A program made the translations under genes and the position numbers. A DNA stretch of 64,000 nucleotides, from the NCBI RefSeq assembly GCF_900066015.1, contig NZ_LN890656.1:620001-684000 (forward strand), given 5' to 3'. The notes beneath the pieces are model-generated. The model saw only the letters and a program-made list of their open reading frames with translations, did not search any database and was not told the origin of the DNA. This DNA is from Candidatus Promineifilum breve (GTDB lineage: Bacteria > Chloroflexota > Anaerolineae > Promineifilales > Promineifilaceae). Below, piece by piece: positions 3,912-58,673 of the stretch (its first letter is position 1; each line of letters starts with the position of its first letter).

Positions 3912-4168
3912 TTGCGTGCTCCATTGATGACAGGGTTGTATGATGAAAAACGAATGATTAAACAAGGATGGGACGGATGAAACGGATGAAAACGGATTGC
4001 ATGTACACAATCCGTTTTCATCCGTCCCATCCGTGTTAATCCGTGGCTAAATGATTAATCTTATTACGAATGATACGGATGAAACGGATGAAAACGAATT
4101 GAACTTACGCAATCCGTTTTCATCCGTCCCATCCGTGTTAATCCGTGGCTAAATGATTAAAAGGCTCA
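3912..4168. repeat. Two tandem copies of a CGGAT-unit hairpin
   Basis: Two long imperfect hairpins lie at about 3960-4052 and 4065-4158. Each left arm is built of short ACGGATGAA-type units and each right arm of the complementary TTCATCCGT-type units, ending in CCGTGGCTAAATGATTA. The two copies are nearly identical. The repeats fill the spacer; I see no gene in it. Confidence 0.9.
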
Positions 4169-6768: not shown

Positions 6769-8637
6769 TTATTGCCGCAGGAAGCGCAGCAATTCCACCC
6801 CGCCCGAATCGCGCAGGGTCAGCTCGTTGCCGTTGATGGTGAATGCACCCGTGCTGTGCAGCGCGCTCAGGAACGCCTGCTCCTGGGCCGTCACGTCCTC
6901 CTCGCAGGCCACCAGACTGCGCGTGCCGACGCTCATCGCCAGCCCATCGGTGCCGAACAGCGAGTAGTTGCCCCAGAACGTGTTGCAGCCGGAGAACCCT
7001 TCCACGTAGTTGCCCACGCCGAAGGAGATCGTCGGCGGCCGGCCGGGCAGTAGACCGGCCGGGCCAATGTTCGCCAGCACCCAGTTGGTATTCGCCAGCC
7101 GGTTGCCGGGGGTCACGTTGACAGTCACGCGCTGGGTAGTGATGGAACCGTCGCGCAGTTGGACGCGCATTTCGTAGGTTGTCGTCGCCGACGGGCACAC
7201 CTGCCGGCTGCCGTCGCCGGTGGCCGGGAACTGCTCGAAGCTCTGGCCGACCTCATAGACCCACACGGCCTGGATATTGGCCACCGACCAGCGCAACGTG
7301 GTGCATTGCCCCTGGTCGATCTGCGTCCGGTCGACCCAGAAGGCCGTTTGCGCCGATGGCGTCGGCTCCGGCGTGGGCGAGGGCACGGGCGTGGGCAGCG
7401 GCGGCCCGGCCACCACCGGCAAGCCGCCGGTATTGAAGGACTCGACAAAGCCGGCGCTGACCCAGCCGCGGCCGTTGGGCGCGCCGTTGAGGGGCGTGGC
7501 CCACCAGTTGTTATCCACGCTGCGGCCGATCAACTCCAGCTCCGCGCCAAACGGGGCCACACCCAGCGACGAGAAAGCCGTGGACGGGCCGCTGCGTACA
7601 TTCACCCCGGCCGCGCCGGTCACAACGGCATAGGCCGCCGGCGGGCCGTCGGGCGTCGGGGCGATCTCCACTTCTTCTTCTTCCGTCTCTGTGCCGCCAT
7701 ATTGCAGCGAGCCGACCAGCGCGTCCAGCACGTCGAGCGCCGGCTGCCAATCGGCGTCGGTCAGCGCGTTCAACTCGACCCCCGACAGGGCCAGCGCCGC
7801 CACCGGATCGGCCTCGATCACGGCCATGTCCTCGGCCGAAATCTCCTCGATGGTGGCCGGCAGGTGGGCCGTGGTGACCGGGAAGAAGGCCGCCACCAGC
7901 ACCTCATCATTGGCCCCGACGAAGCCCTGGAAGATGTAGCGCAAGCCCTCGTTGGTCAGCGGGTGGGGGTCCTGGGCAAAGCGGGCCACGAAGCGGATGC
8001 CTTCCCATTCGTCGAACTCAAGGAATTGCCCCTGCACGGCCAGGTCGTTGACGGCGCGGGCTTCCTCGATGGGCAGCACGGGCATATTCTGGGGGCTGAC
8101 GGCCGACGGCCGGCGGCCAATCCAGCGCGTCAGCGCGTCCAGATTTTCGCCCACCAGCGGGTTCTGGGCCGCGTCCCACAGATCGCGGTAGGCGGCGGCG
8201 GGGATGATGTAGATGATCGGCTCGCCCGCCTGGTGGGTGTCGGAGGCGCGGCCGTCGAAGGTGATGGTGATGTGTTGCGGCAGCCCGCGAATGTCAGGCG
8301 TGTCGTCGGCGTAGTCGGTCGCCGCGACGCAATCGGCCTGCCATTCGCTATAGATACCCTGCGTGTTGAGGTTGATCAGCGTCGGATCGACCACGTCGCA
8401 GAACTGGGCCACGGGCTGGACGGCCGGCGGCGCGGTGGCTTCGGCGGTGGCCTCGGCCGGAACTTCGGTGGCCTCGGCCGGGGCCTCGGTGGCCACGGCT
8501 TCCGGGGCGGCCGTGGCTTCGGTCACAGGCGTTTCCTCAGCCGGGGCGATGGTCGGCACCACGTCCGGCTGTTGCTGGCAGGCGACGACCAACGCCGCCA
8601 GCAGCACGATCAGGATCATCAGGGTGTACTTCTTCAT
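6769..8637 (-). CDS. Secreted lipoprotein with SH3b and META domains
   Basis: A 622-residue exported lipoprotein. The signal MKKYTLMILIVLLAALVVAC ends in a lipobox. An Ala/Glu/Pro/Thr linker (about 20-75) leads to a 200-residue N-terminal region I do not recognise. An SH3b domain follows (about 325-405, with GVNVRSGPSTAFSSLG and GWV), then a proline-rich linker and a beta-sandwich segment with FWVDRTQIDQGQCTTLRWSV that is common in Chloroflexota surface proteins. The last 110 residues form one META domain. The start at 8637 is chosen because AAAGGAA precedes it and the signal peptide then begins cleanly. SH3b domains often bind cell wall, so a wall-associated role is plausible but inferred. 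Confidence 0.9.
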   Translation of the reverse strand: MKKYTLMILIVLLAALVVACQQQPDVVPTIAPAEETPVTEATAAPEAVATEAPAEATEVPAEATAEATAPPAVQPVAQFCDVVDPTLINLNTQGIYSEWQADCVAATDYADDTPDIRGLPQHITITFDGRASDTHQAGEPIIYIIPAAAYRDLWDAAQNPLVGENLDALTRWIGRRPSAVSPQNMPVLPIEEARAVNDLAVQGQFLEFDEWEGIRFVARFAQDPHPLTNEGLRYIFQGFVGANDEVLVAAFFPVTTAHLPATIEEISAEDMAVIEADPVAALALSGVELNALTDADWQPALDVLDALVGSLQYGGTETEEEEVEIAPTPDGPPAAYAVVTGAAGVNVRSGPSTAFSSLGVAPFGAELELIGRSVDNNWWATPLNGAPNGRGWVSAGFVESFNTGGLPVVAGPPLPTPVPSPTPEPTPSAQTAFWVDRTQIDQGQCTTLRWSVANIQAVWVYEVGQSFEQFPATGDGSRQVCPSATTTYEMRVQLRDGSITTQRVTVNVTPGNRLANTNWVLANIGPAGLLPGRPPTISFGVGNYVEGFSGCNTFWGNYSLFGTDGLAMSVGTRSLVACEEDVTAQEQAFLSALHSTGAFTINGNELTLRDSGGVELLRFLRQ

Positions 8638-12876: not shown

Positions 12877-12985
12877 AGATAGAACGCGGATGACGCGGAT
12901 TGGCGCGGATTTTCGCGGATCAGAAGCTATCTGATCCGCGTCAATCCGCGTTAATCCGTGTCATCCGCGTTCCATTCTTTCCGAT
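12877..12985. repeat. Long hairpin of CGGAT units
   Basis: The left arm reads AGAACGCGGATGACGCGGAT with further GCGGAT units; the right arm carries the complementary ATCCGCG units and ends in ATCCGCGTTCC. The loop is about ten bases. It starts one base after the beta-helix stop codon. The same family occurs at 30532, 32108, 35099, 52937 and elsewhere. Confidence 0.92.
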
Positions 12986-30529: not shown

Positions 30530-30625
30530 ATAGAACGCGGATGACGCGGATTGACGCGGATCAGAATCGAATCTTCTCTGATCCGTGTCAATCCGCCAAA
30601 TCCGTGTCATCCGTGTTCTATCATT
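30530..30625. repeat. Long hairpin of CGGAT units
   Basis: Arms AGAACGCGGATGACGCGGAT and complementary ATCCGTGTCATCCGTGTTCT enclose a short loop with an internal CAGA...TCTG pair. It fills the spacer between the VOC and YceI genes. Confidence 0.92.
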
Positions 30626-32103: not shown

Positions 32104-32280
32104 ATGAATTAGCCACGGATTTACACGGATTACACGGATTGACACGGAAAGAACGAATGAATTAGCCACGGATTGACGCGGATGACACGGATCAACACGG
32201 AAAGAATAGCCTACCAATCTAAGCATCCGTGAAAATCCGTGTAATCCGTGTCAATCCGTGGTGAAATCATTTTTCCCCCG
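32100..32280. repeat. Double left arm, single right arm CGGAT hairpin
   Basis: Two successive left arms, both beginning ATGAATTAGCCACGGATT, stand at about 32101-32150 and 32155-32205. A right arm of ATCCGTGTAATCCGTG units ends in CCGTGGTGAAATCA (32222-32268). The tetR stop codon lies in the first arm. The duplicated arm suggests slippage or repeated insertion. Confidence 0.9.
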
Positions 32281-35098: not shown

Positions 35099-35224
35099 TA
35101 ATTAGCCACGGATTGGCACGGATTGGACGGATATACACGGATAAGAGGGTCAAGAGTGCAGTCATGCCGCGATTCAATCCGTTTAATCCGTCTAATCCGT
35201 GTCCATCCGTGGTTCATTATTTTC
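35099..35224. repeat. CGGAT hairpin between divergent genes
   Basis: The left arm ATTAGCCACGGATTGGCACG with further units and a right arm of AATCCGT units ending CCGTGTCCATCCGTGGTT flank about 40 bp. It lies between divergently transcribed genes, so it cannot be a terminator for either. Confidence 0.9.
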
Positions 35225-36783: not shown

Positions 36784-36961
36784 GAGGGGGAGAATCCACA
36801 GATTACACAGATTTCACAGATATAAGAACAATCATCCGCAGATTGGGCAGATTCGGCAGATTACCCGATTGCTCTTAGAAATCTGCCTAATCTGCCTAAT
36901 CTGCGGATAAATCTTCTTAAAAATCTGTGAAATCTGTGAAATCTGTGGATTCTCTTCTCTT
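36784..36961. repeat. Nested hairpin between convergent genes
   Basis: The outer arms carry CACAGATTACACAGATTT units (36796-36822) and their complement (36920-36950), bounded by GAGGGGGAGAATC and GATTCTCTTCTC. The inner hairpin has GCAGATTGG/GCAGATTCG units (36838-36870) and AATCTGCCT units (36878-36908). The structure fills the entire spacer. Confidence 0.93.
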
Positions 36962-52936: not shown

Positions 52937-53037
52937 GGAATAGAACGCGGATGACACGGATCAACGCGGATTTTCGCCGATCAGATAGTTTCTGATCCGC
53001 GAAAATCCGTGCCAATCCGTGTCATCCGCGTTCCATC
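52937..53037. repeat. CGGAT hairpin between divergent genes
   Basis: Left arm AGAACGCGGATGACACGGAT and further units, right arm GATCCGCGAAAATCCGTG-type units closing in ATCCGCGTTCC, loop near 52985. It lies between purH and the divergent 53094 gene, so it cannot be a terminator for either. Confidence 0.93.
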
Positions 53038-54869: not shown

Positions 54870-57629
54870 ATGGCAACTGAATGGTATAAACTTTCGATTG
54901 ACCAGACGCTCAAAGAAGTCGGCAGCGCCCTTGACCGGGGACTGGCCGCCGACGAAGCGGCGCGCCGGCTGACCGAGCGCGGGCCGAACGAACTCCAGGA
55001 AAAGGCCGGCCGCTCCAAGCTGGAAATCATCTGGGAGCAATTCGCCAACATCCTGACCGTGCTGCTCATCCTGGCCGCCGGCGTCTCGGCCTTCCTGGGC
55101 GACTGGATCGAGGCTGTCGCCATCCTCATCATCGTCGTGCTCAACGGCATCCTGGGCTACAGCCAGGAGTATCGCGCCGAGCAGTCGATGGCCGCCCTGA
55201 AGCGCATGTCGGTGCCCATCGTCCGCGTGCGGCGCGACGGCCGCCTGCAAGAGGTGTCGGCCCGCGACCTCGTGCCCGGCGACGTGGTCGTCCTGGAGAC
55301 GGGCAACATCGTCCCCGCCGACGGCCGCGTTACGACCAGCGTCAACATGCGCATCGAGGAGGCCGCCCTCACCGGCGAATCGGAGCCGGTGGAGAAGGAT
55401 CAGTCGCTGGTCTTCAACGATGACCACGCCCTGGGCGACCGGCGCAATATGGTCTATAGCGGCACGCTGGTCAACTACGGCCGCGGCGAGTTCGTCGTCA
55501 CCTCCACCGGCATGGAGACCGAACTGGGCCACATCGCCAACCTGATTCAGGGCGTCGAGGAGGATGACACCCCCTTGCAGGCCCGTCTCGACCGCCTCGG
55601 CCGCGCCCTGGCCTACGCCGCCCTGGCCCTGATCACCGTGATGATCGTCCTGGGCTTGCTGCGCGGCGAGACCGATTACGGCGAATTGCTGCTGACGGCC
55701 GTCAGTCTGGCCGTGGCCGCCATCCCCGAGGCGCTGACGGCCGTGGTCACCATCGCCCTGTCGCTGGGGGCGCAACGGATGCTCAAGCGGCAGGCGCTCA
55801 TCCGCCGCCTGCCGGCCGTGGAAACGCTCGGCTCGGTCACCATCATCTGCTCCGACAAGACCGGCACGCTGACCCTCAACCGCATGACCGTGCAGGCCGT
55901 CGATATGGCGAACCACACCTATAGCTTCCAGCACAACGAGGCCACCCGCCGGCTGGAAATTATGAAGGTTGGCGGCGAGACCCCCCACCTGGGCACGAAT
56001 CCGACGCTGGATCTGTTGCTCGTCAGTGGCGCGCTCAACAGCGACGCCATCCTGGCCCACGAGACCGAGGCCCAGGCCATCGGCGACCCGACCGAGGCCG
56101 CGCTGGTCAACGCCGCCGCCCTGGTGGAGATGCGCAAGCCCGACCTGGAACATGCCTTCCCGCGCATCGCCGAAGTACCGTTCGACTCCACCCGCAAGCG
56201 CATGACCACCGTCCACCGCGTGCCCAGCAACGATGACGAGGTGCCCGATAGTCTGGCCGCCGTCTGGCAGCGGCGCGACCTGGCCCAGGTGACCGAGCCG
56301 CCCTTCGTGGCCTTCACCAAGGGCAGCGTCGATGGCCTGCTGCAAATCTCGGCCTCCGTCTGGGACGAGGGGCAGGTGAAGCCAATCGATGACGGCTGGC
56401 GGCAGCGCATTATGACCGCCCACGACGAGATGGCCGCCAAGGGCATGCGCGTCCTGGGCATGGCCCTGCGCGGCTGGAGCAGCCAGCCCGACAAGAACGA
56501 CGAAGAGACATTGGAGCGCGACCTCATCTTCGTCGGCATGTTCGGCCTCATCGACCCGCCGCGGCCGGAAGTGCGCGATTCGGTCGCCAAGTGCAAGGCC
56601 GCCGGCATTCGCCCGGTGATGATCACCGGCGACCACCCGCTGACCGCCCGCCACATCGCCCAACAGATCGGCATCGCCGACAACGACAAGTTCATCACCG
56701 GCCAGGAGCTGGATCGCCTCTCGCCCAGCGAACTGGAGCAGGAAGCGCGCGACGTGTCGGTCTTCGCCCGCGTGTCGCCGGAGCACAAGCTGCGGCTCAT
56801 TGACGTCTACCAGAATCAGGGCAACATCGTCTCCATGACCGGTGACGGCGTGAACGACGCCCCGGCGCTGAAGAAGGCCGACATCGGCGTAGCGATGGGC
56901 ATCACCGGCACCGACGTGGCCAAGGGCGCGGCCGAGATGGTGCTGCTCGACGACAACTTCGCCACTATCGTCGCCGCCGTCGAAGAGGGGCGGATCATCT
57001 ACGACAACATCCGCCGCTTCATCAAGTATCTGCTGACCTGCAACGCCAGCGAGATCGCCGTGATGATCATCGGCCCGTTCCTGGGCATGCCCCTGCCCCT
57101 GCTGCCGCTGCAAATCCTGTGGATGAATCTGGTGACCGATGGCCTGCCGGCGCTGGCCCTGGGCATCGAACCGCCGGAGCGGGACGTGATGAACCGGCCG
57201 CCCTACTCGGCCACGGAGAGCGTCTTCGGCCGCGGCATGGTGACGTTCATCATGGTCTTCGGCGTCGTGCTGAGCATCGCCGCGCTGGGCGGCGGCTACT
57301 GGCTGTGGCGCGACGGCGACCCGGCCTGGCGCACGGCGCTCTTCACGACGCTGGTCTTCTGCCAATTGGCGATGGCCCTGTCGGTGCGCTCGGAGAAGGA
57401 GTCGCTGCTGCGCACCGGCCTGCTGACCAACAAGCCCATGGTCGGCGCGCTGATCATCACGGTGGTCTTGCAATTGGTGCTCATCTATTGGGGGCCGGCG
57501 CAACGCATCTTCCGAACCACCGCCCTGCCGCCGCGCGATTTGGCTCTGGCGTTTGGGTTGTCGCTGGTTGTCCTGCTGCTGGTGGAAATCTGGAAATACT
57601 TCGTCCGGGCGCGGGAAAGAAATAATTAG
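54870..57629 (+). CDS. P2A-type Ca2+-transporting ATPase
   Basis: A 919-residue membrane pump. The family motifs are complete: [11 protein letters not shown] (TGES), CSDKTGTLT (phosphorylated Asp, near residue 328), KGSVDGLL in the nucleotide domain, and [21 protein letters not shown] in the P domain. The calcium-site residues of the SERCA group are present: Glu in [12 protein letters not shown] (helix 4), Asn and Glu in [10 protein letters not shown] (helix 5), and Asn, Thr and Asp in [14 protein letters not shown] (helix 6). Calcium, possibly with manganese, is the expected substrate. GGAAGG precedes the ATG. It lies 33 bp after the ParB/USP gene, perhaps in one transcript. Its stop TAG is part of the repeat that follows. 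Confidence 0.94.
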
Positions 57630-57770
57630 CCACGGATTGACACGGATTTAACGGATAGAAGAGGGAGAAACCACAGATTACACAGATTTCACAGATTATT
57701 AAGAGCGTTCTTAAATCTGTGTAATCTGTGTAATCTGTGGTTTTCTTCTCTTCAATCCGTGGTTAAATCA
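57626..57770. repeat. Nested hairpin spanning two convergent stop codons
   Basis: The outer arms are TTAGCCACGGATTGACACGG and further units (57627-57655), and TCAATCCGTGGTTAAATCA (57752-57770). The inner hairpin has CACAGATTACACAGATTT units (57671-57697) and its complement (57713-57740). The TAG stop of the ATPase and the stop of the convergent thioesterase (57768-57770) are the outermost bases of the structure. Confidence 0.94.
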
Positions 57771-58673
57771 TTCCGCCACGTTCGGCCGGAAGCTCTCGAT
57801 GAACTCTCCCGGCACGCGCACGGGCCGGCCGGTCGCCAGATCGACGAAGACCCACAGCGCATGGGCGCGGGCCAGCAGCGCCCCATCGCCCACGCGGCGA
57901 ATCTCGTTGTGGCGGATGGCCGTGGCCCGCCGCAAGTCCGACAGGTAGGACGTGATCTCCAGTTCGTCGTTCAGCAGCGCCGGCGCGCGGTATTCGATGC
58001 GATAGCGCCGGGCCACAATCGCCACCCCCCGCGCCATGATGTGGGCCATTGACCCGCCAAACGCCTCGGCCGCGCTCACGTTGCACTCCTCGATGTAGGC
58101 CAGATAGTTGGCGTTGTTCACGTGGCCGGCCGGGTCCACGTCGCGCCACTCCACCCGGCGGCGCGCCCGATAGACGCCCGGCGGCGGCGGCGGGGCCGTG
58201 GGGAATGGCTCGCGCCGTTGGCCGGGAATCGTCGCCGGGTGATAGAAAGCGGCCACCATCGCCGGCGGCGGCGTGGCCGGGCGCAGCGTGGCCGTGTCCA
58301 GAAAGACCCACTCCGTCGTCCCCGTCGCCACCGGCTCGTCGCTGCCGGCCAGCCGTAGCTCATACATCCGCCGCGAGCGCACCCGCCGGAAGTCGCCCAC
58401 CCACGTCCGCACGATGACCGTATCGCCATAGACCAGCGGGCGCAAATAGGTGATGTCGGTCTCGCGGATGAGCCACAGCCGGCCCATCTGGTTATACCGC
58501 GCCACGTCGTAGCCCACGGCGGCCGAGGCGTCGAGGGCCGCCTCCTGCATGTAGCGCAAATAGTTGGCGTGGTTGACGTGGCCGTAGGCATCGCACTCGT
58601 AGAGGCGCATGCGGAAGGCGCGCTCCAGCACGGCCGGCGACCCGGGCGCATCGATCTGGTTGTTGTCGGGCAT
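57768..58673 (-). CDS. Tandem hotdog acyl-CoA thioesterase
   Basis: A 301-residue cytoplasmic protein with two 4HBT hotdog domains. The first has RLYECDAYGHVNHANYLRYMQEAA (near residue 22) and the second VEWRDVDPAGHVNNANYLAYIEE (near residue 168). Both keep the D-x-x-G-H-V-N-(H/N)-A-N-Y pattern with the active-site Asp. Double-hotdog proteins of this kind hydrolyse acyl-CoA or acyl-ACP thioesters; the chain length is unknown. It heads a run of minus-strand genes after the 58679 gene with five bases between, so it is likely co-transcribed. Confidence 0.92.
   Translation of the reverse strand: MPDNNQIDAPGSPAVLERAFRMRLYECDAYGHVNHANYLRYMQEAALDASAAVGYDVARYNQMGRLWLIRETDITYLRPLVYGDTVIVRTWVGDFRRVRSRRMYELRLAGSDEPVATGTTEWVFLDTATLRPATPPPAMVAAFYHPATIPGQRREPFPTAPPPPPGVYRARRRVEWRDVDPAGHVNNANYLAYIEECNVSAAEAFGGSMAHIMARGVAIVARRYRIEYRAPALLNDELEITSYLSDLRRATAIRHNEIRRVGDGALLARAHALWVFVDLATGRPVRVPGEFIESFRPNVAE

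Follow-up and report, generated by a model that had tools for sequence, protein, structure and literature searches.

The best-described systems of comparable layout are those of REP sequences and their RAYT proteins, in which, according to the abstracts of two accounts, a genome carries many intergenic palindromes together with a few dedicated genes that are flanked by the same palindromes and match them in type (PMC3733652, PMC8266576). The abstract of PMC3733652 leaves the question of a dedicated transposase open for CGTC REPs. The hairpins described here, followed up from a convergent gene end in the window (the whole 64,000-nucleotide stretch of the Candidatus Promineifilum breve genome that was analysed), share with such REPtrons and REPINs the many intergenic palindromes, mostly 3' of genes in convergent and tandem spacers, and the few copies of a dedicated gene between the same palindromes, with enzyme and palindrome types that match. 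They differ in the enzyme, which by its signature is of the PD-(D/E)XK type and not an HUH transposase, in their arms of tandem 8-10 bp units with no GTAG/CGTC tag, in the position of the gene inside the hairpin loop and in their nesting. Since neither the tag nor the enzyme of REPs was found with these palindromes, we do not class the GxxExxY hairpins as REP/RAYT. As in MITEs, gene-less and gene-bearing copies have common ends and deletions within the loop gene were seen, but no DDE transposase was found. Homing endonuclease elements consist of a small nuclease gene inside the site that its enzyme may cut, with flanks shared with empty copies. By analogy, the hairpins would resemble them in holding a nuclease-like gene within a putative target whose flanks are common to empty copies; they differ in having no intron or intein and in the many sites per genome. 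Two-way intrinsic terminators likewise have an A-rich side, a stem and a U-rich side between convergent stops, whereas the present hairpins are very long, repeat-built and common to hundreds of sites, and a terminator role for them is putative.

The loop gene encodes GxxExxY, an enzyme family already known by name whose tie to these hairpins was not found in the papers searched. Within literature coverage that lacks most subscription papers, no description linked GxxExxY to hairpins, the protein received passing mentions with no described role, and a search for the repeat strings gave no match. GxxExxY, widely annotated with no described role found, gains a function-shaped context here, and a candidate enzyme is offered for those intergenic palindromes which lack a transposase of their own. 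Judged from sequence comparison, the GxxExxY gene and the hairpins very probably form one element, and on balance we read the feature at 57626-57766 as two nested gene-less copies of this nuclease-linked hairpin element. More tentatively, GxxExxY could be the engine of an undescribed class of bacterial mobile elements, consisting of a unit-arm hairpin with a PD-(D/E)XK gene in its loop, which would land after stop codons or in hairpin loops and shed hundreds of gene-less copies, in many phyla and in viruses; 57626-57766 would then be the fossil of two landings.

The original prediction had described a long nested hairpin that fills a convergent spacer, and both parts were borne out. The region 57610-57790 folded at -83.6 kcal/mol compared to -40.0 +/- 3.9 kcal/mol for shuffles (z -11.1), with none of 200 shuffles equalling it, and the hairpin fills the 138 bp from stop to stop (Table 1). 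One hairpin family does lie inside another, the outer built of CACGGATT units (type B) and the inner of CACAGATT units (type A). The outer layer is, however, lopsided, with three CACGGATT-type units in the left arm (57631-57657) and one in the right (57754-57761), so that the loop enclosing the inner hairpin is without about two right-hand units. The inner layer is intact, with three CACAGATT units per arm and purine-rich and pyrimidine-rich flanks. Both stop codons had also been placed within the hairpin; this holds for the TAG of the ATPase-like gene, the sole stop codon within the continuous basal stem, but the minus-strand TGA of the thioesterase-like gene lies just beyond that stem, where the fold extends only weakly.

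Table 1. Features of the nested hairpin, its flanking genes and other hairpin copies in the window
Feature	Position	Strand	Basis or remark
Entire nested hairpin	57626..57766	.	Fold z -11.1; fills convergent spacer
Outer left arm, type B: TTAGC CACGGATTGA CACGGATTTA ACGGATA, 3 units	57626..57657	+	Sequence; family of other type B copies
Stop codon TAG of ATPase-like gene, within basal stem	57627..57629	+	ORF, fold
Purine-rich left flank of inner element, GAAGAGGGAGAAAC	57658..57671	+	Most type A copies have a comparable flank
Inner left arm, type A, CACAGATT x3	57672..57697	+	Word search
Inner loop ATTAAGAGCGTTCTTA, forming small AAGA/TCTT stem	57698..57713	+	Loop comparison
Inner right arm, type A, minus-strand CACAGATT x3	57714..57739	-	Word search
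Pyrimidine-rich right flank of inner element, GTTTTCTTCTCTTC	57740..57753	+	Sequence
Outer right arm, type B, single unit AATCCGTGGTTAA	57754..57766	-	Sequence, fold
Stop codon TGA of thioesterase-like gene, outside continuous stem	57768..57770	-	ORF
Flanking gene, 919 aa, cation-transporting P-type ATPase-like	54870..57629	+	By eye from DKTGT motif
Flanking gene, 301 aa, acyl-CoA thioesterase-like	57768..58673	-	Named by eye
Pair of type B arms (CACGGATG/CACGGATT) sharing one spacer	4018..4147	-	
Single-layer type C hairpin (CGCGGAT)	12885..12969	.	47/52 aligned bases identical to arm of gene-bearing L251
Nested copy: type A hairpin with GTGG/CAGTGG hairpin in loop	14559..14693	.	
Type C/B hairpin	30536..30615	.	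34/34 aligned bases identical to arm of L251
Type B copy enclosing second type B left arm	32114..32260	.	
Single-layer type B hairpin	35107..35211	.	44/50 aligned bases identical to arm of gene-bearing L250
Nested copy: type A hairpin with GGCAGATT hairpin in loop, convergent spacer	36797..36947	.	
Single-layer type C hairpin	52946..53030	.	

At up to two mismatches, the word CACAGATTNCACAGATT occurred 14 times in the 64-kb window compared to 0.01 expected. The whole genome (G000; 5.03 Mb, 3 contigs) held 240 exact copies, with none for the reversed control, and 75 matches to the CACGGATT word at no more than two mismatches. We compiled 99 own-genome sources, namely the window, 18 search loci and 80 stretches around repeat matches, which, being chosen by repeat matches, are not a random sample. 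They yielded 130 distinct arm groups, of which 122 lay in spacers between genes called by our own script (84 tandem, 27 convergent, 11 divergent), three overlapped a called gene and five were at edges; all 54 spacers of the window, for comparison, comprised 39 tandem, 7 convergent and 8 divergent. The 122 placed groups thus have a REP-like distribution, mostly 3' of genes in tandem and convergent spacers. The suggestion of insertion near stop codons gained weight from the recurrence of this position, as 58 of 69 CACAGATT-type hairpin sides facing a stop were within 18 nt of it, compared to 6 of 54 sides facing a start. Rfam gave no match at the gathering score and 19 below threshold, nearly all to microRNA hairpin models. 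Doubled or tandem hairpins were seen in type B spacers (window 32114-32260, L100, L086 and L090).

The ATPase-like and thioesterase-like genes are also convergent neighbours in four relatives (G001, G005, G006 and G007; thioesterase amino-acid identity 73-78%), and the spacer holds a different hairpin in each. G005 has a ACGCCAGG/GCGAAGG-type hairpin with both stops in its base (TAA..TTA), G007 a hairpin with TAG..CTA at its boundaries, and G001 and G006 have plain terminators. One gene further, the gap is 99 bp in G007 and contains a ACGCCAAGG/GGCAAAGGCGC-type hairpin, compared to 4-8 bp in G000, G001 and G005; in G006 the genes overlap under the chosen start codon. An arm of the hairpin in the 99-bp gap contains the stop of the upstream gene, and this hairpin looks like a gained element which supplied a stop codon. 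That an element can supply a stop would account for the frequent presence of a stop codon in gene-end hairpins.

These spacers also lend themselves to a different account, which we consider unlikely: the hairpins would be passive terminator-like or mRNA-end structures, enlarged on the spot through slippage and template switching, with hairpins at gene ends serving as safe landing sites for GxxExxY genes. Some hairpin of unrelated sequence in the same spacer of all four relatives fits a two-way terminator maintained by selection. T made up 53% of the 14 nt beyond the stem on either strand (98 sides of 49 CACAGATT hairpins), giving the intrinsic-terminator arrangement of a stem and then a U-rich tract 3' of a stop codon, and the unit number differs between the arms of hairpins, so slippage does occur. 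Passive growth is, however, hard to reconcile with the recurrence of the same families hundreds of times in one genome, and the gene-bearing copies add further evidence against it.

Exactly two genes in the genome match PF13366 (GxxExxY, PD-(D/E)XK nuclease-like; 139.5 and 136.2 bits, cut-off 22), and both occupy hairpin loops, one of type B and one of type C. Their arms aligned with those of gene-less copies, one of them in the window, at 45/48, 48/51 and 34/34 bases. Gene-less hairpins thus share their ends with a gene-bearing element, as MITEs do, and this likeness of arms in the two kinds of copies argues against growth in place. PF13366 was the sole gene family found within loops of these hairpins. 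Scanning GTDB genomes for CACAGATTNCACAGATTNCACAGATT gave at least 120 stretches, those listed coming from Cloacimonadota, Planctomycetota, Verrucomicrobiota, Asticcacaulis, Bacteroidota, Desulfosporosinus, Brocadiaceae, Acidobacteria and Treponema, among others; an identical 26-base pattern in many phyla again speaks against passive hairpins. Two of the listed stretches had an ORF between the arms: the L169 loop protein matched TIGR04256 (GxxExxY; 133 bits, cut-off 35), and the ORF of L131 was frame-shifted. Across the 120 listed word-picked stretches, hmmsearch detected the family in nine and between CACAGATT arms in five, some decayed. Two related Desulfosporosinus copies shared flanks and arms and differed by a 77-bp deletion within the loop gene remnant, which makes gene decay one possible origin of short-loop hairpins; HMMER found no gene remnants in the fetched G000 hairpin copies, so in-loop decay was seen in other genomes only.

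Several arrangements of the gene were observed besides. Two Desulfosporosinus genomes (G063 and G070) are full of dead copies, with 10 and 14 PF13366 matches of which nearly all are short fragments in decay, and tandem PF13366 domain pairs occurred within one frame of ~270-345 codons (G034:C39, G025:C119, G043:C172 and others). The GxxExxY genes of L269 and L277 sit between two complete hairpins and not between two arms.

The GxxExxY protein is a stand-alone protein of ~120 residues with a D...ExK signature. D69, E79 and K81 were invariant in 30/30 aligned proteins, giving the D...(D/E)xK signature of PD-(D/E)XK. The modelled L169 protein (pLDDT 73) consists of two helices, three strands, one helix and two strands, an order which we take to be that of PD-(D/E)XK enzymes. 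Fold matches of the model were headed by nucleases and were weak, with a best Foldseek E of 0.01 and a best Z of 5.4; a PDB sequence-profile search returned nothing significant, the only nuclease being 1m0d (E 0.57). No PADLOC defence family matched below E 0.001, and three proteins had no match in PHROGs. When arm units were scored against protein type, with weak-arm and motif-less loci left out, GxGLLE proteins had units ending AG at 31/31 scored loci (one unscored) and GxGFLE proteins had units ending AT at 18/20 scored loci (three ties, one unscored). The protein tree (55 rows) is mainly one deep split, so this match mostly reflects co-inheritance and lends no independent support to recognition. 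Members of f1, the family to which the window belongs, fall on both sides of the split, each with arms of the type found in its protein clade, which indicates that arms and gene travel together; that arms track the protein clade and not the host family is a further point against hairpins grown in place.

Flanks were scored by local alignment, taking the best match between the 300 bp upstream and the reverse-complemented 300 bp downstream, with a threshold of 14.0, the maximum over 17 control loci. Inverted arms were present beside 26/31 PF13366 genes of G000 and its relatives compared to 0/17 control loci; the five below threshold were L254 and L267 (13.5) and L260, L273 and L275 (8-9). A stricter null, in which arms were paired between loci, had a 95th percentile of 19.5, passed by only 17/31, and a 99th percentile of 76.9, passed by 0/31; near-identical loci and shared arms inflate this null, and because the loci share arms it was set aside for counting. 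For other phyla, 35 loci were chosen from the 120 listed stretches, one per organism, and 30 were scored: 24 genes exceeded 14 and six did not, compared to 0/51 shifted windows (maximum 13). On plasmids, 3/8 PF13366 genes passed the threshold and 5/8 were below it. Viral contigs scanned with a single protein gave no relative, whereas scanning with a profile gave four, all with inverted arms (4/4). Two viral contigs were rich in CACAGATT arms (L248, and L245 with nine in <400 bp, 2467-2852). Rows of CACAGATT arms in the same direction, ~100-130 bp apart, were seen in Anammoxibacter, Flavobacterium and other Bacteroidota (L139, L141, L233, L173 and L202), a layout unlike the hairpin at 57626-57766.

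The gene was present in 34/35 genomes picked for the CACAGATT word compared to 42/201 in a phylum sample. This sample comprised 24 genomes with gene and arms, 18 with the gene only, 15 with arms only and 144 with neither (odds ratio 12.8, p 2e-10, kinship ignored). Over 52 family genomes arm count rose with gene count (Spearman 0.47, p 4e-4), the exceptions being five genomes with at least five arm words and no gene and five with the gene and no arm word.

An empty site for a gene-bearing element was identified between fabD and fabG. On a Sphingomonas parapaucimobilis plasmid, a hairpin with its GxxExxY gene directly follows the stop of fabD and precedes the ribosome site of fabG, in a spacer of 464 bp. 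The same spacer measures 24 to 32 bp in S. paeninsulae, S. meliloti and R. indigoferae and is also short in M. bullatum (tblastn), and the GxxExxY gene is absent from it in all four records; the element edges in these pairs are not sharp. A DNA search for an empty site with the viral flank returned the same contig only, and a search for plasmids similar to that of a Bacteroides element returned only itself.

Insertion at the loop of another hairpin had been proposed from this single locus, and nesting of this kind recurs with several inner families; at 57626-57766 itself, the order of events is our reading of the layers. With strict units, 49 two-armed CACAGATT hairpins were counted, 26 with loops of <40 nt and 23 with loops of at least 40 nt, many of the latter holding hairpins. 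The long type A loops contained GTGG/CAGTGG, CGCAGATT, GGCAGATT or GAAACCGAGTTTC hairpins or plain sequence. AAGA began 13/26 short and 13/23 long loops, TCTT ended 14/26 and 12/23, and both were present in 6/23 long loops compared to 0.02 expected from shuffling. The halves of the short loop are thus kept at the ends of long loops, the pattern left by insertion mid-loop, and their retention around inner hairpins also counts against passive growth. Nor do the relatives all carry the same nested structure, as the spacer differs in the four genomes described above and empty sites exist. From these patterns, the inner CACAGATT hairpin was likely inserted into the outer CACGGATT hairpin at 57626-57766, and the loss of outer right-arm units suggests that this insertion was not clean. 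Hairpins of a further family, GAAACCGAGTTTCTTNNGAGAAACTCGGTTTC, were observed inside a type A loop (L056) and beside a type A hairpin (L068, ~7395-7500).

It is improbable that the two layers are instead a single composite element, copied whole and not inserted at 57626-57766. Some nested pairs may be copied together, since the junctions of CACA-outer/CGCA-inner pairs are alike (GAAGAG..TTATCCGCAG / CTGCGGAT..CTCTTC). Type A loops, however, also enclose the CGCAGAT and GGCAGAT families in addition to GTGG/CAGTGG and GAAACCGAGTTTC, and the CACGGATT-outer/CACAGATT-inner pair was met only once among the fetched own-genome copies, at 57626-57766.

If the hairpins are nuclease-linked elements, as we prefer, each element would be a hairpin with arms of 3-4 copies of an 8-10 bp unit (CACAGATT, CACGGATT, CGCGGATT), a few copies keeping the nuclease gene in the loop and most having only a short loop. 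The outer CACGGATT element would have arrived first, just after the stops of two convergent genes; the inner CACAGATT element would then have entered the outer loop, and the outer right arm would have lost its units nearest the loop at this entry or later. The nuclease may cut hairpins of its own family, in cruciform or single-stranded form, in the loop or close to it, and the loop would be refilled by repair from another copy or by capture of another hairpin. We put forward such nuclease-driven cut and repair with some reserve; if the enzyme does cut its hairpins, this would bear on the spread and the nesting of such repeats. The hairpins would act as two-way terminators, and the elements may persist since a hairpin that follows a stop and ends in a U-rich tail is harmless, or useful as such a terminator.

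An origin of the hairpins as MITE-like remnants, whether of an ordinary transposon or of a REP/RAYT (HUH transposase) system, is highly doubtful, for although they are high-copy, palindromic and 3' of genes like REPs (abstract of PMC3733652) and the genome has three PF01797 genes, the ends of 57626-57766 (AATAATTAGCC and GGTTAAATCATT) have no unpaired GTAG or CGTC tag as defined in the same abstract, the loops yielded no gene family other than PF13366, and the PF01797 loci have other palindromes (CCGTGGGATGAATCCCACG, AACCGGCTGAAGCCGGTT, GGTGGAACTTCCAGTTCCACC) or none. A RAYT/REP origin was rejected on this last ground, none of the three genomic PF01797 loci having a Y1/HUH transposase gene flanked by the hairpin palindromes. 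The Y1_Tnp (RAYT-like) genes of G000 lie at L021 (C2:284376), L022 (C1:3171597) and L023 (C1:556427); L021 and L023 are ringed by short palindromes of their own, which suggests that the genome may also contain a REP system distinct from the hairpins.
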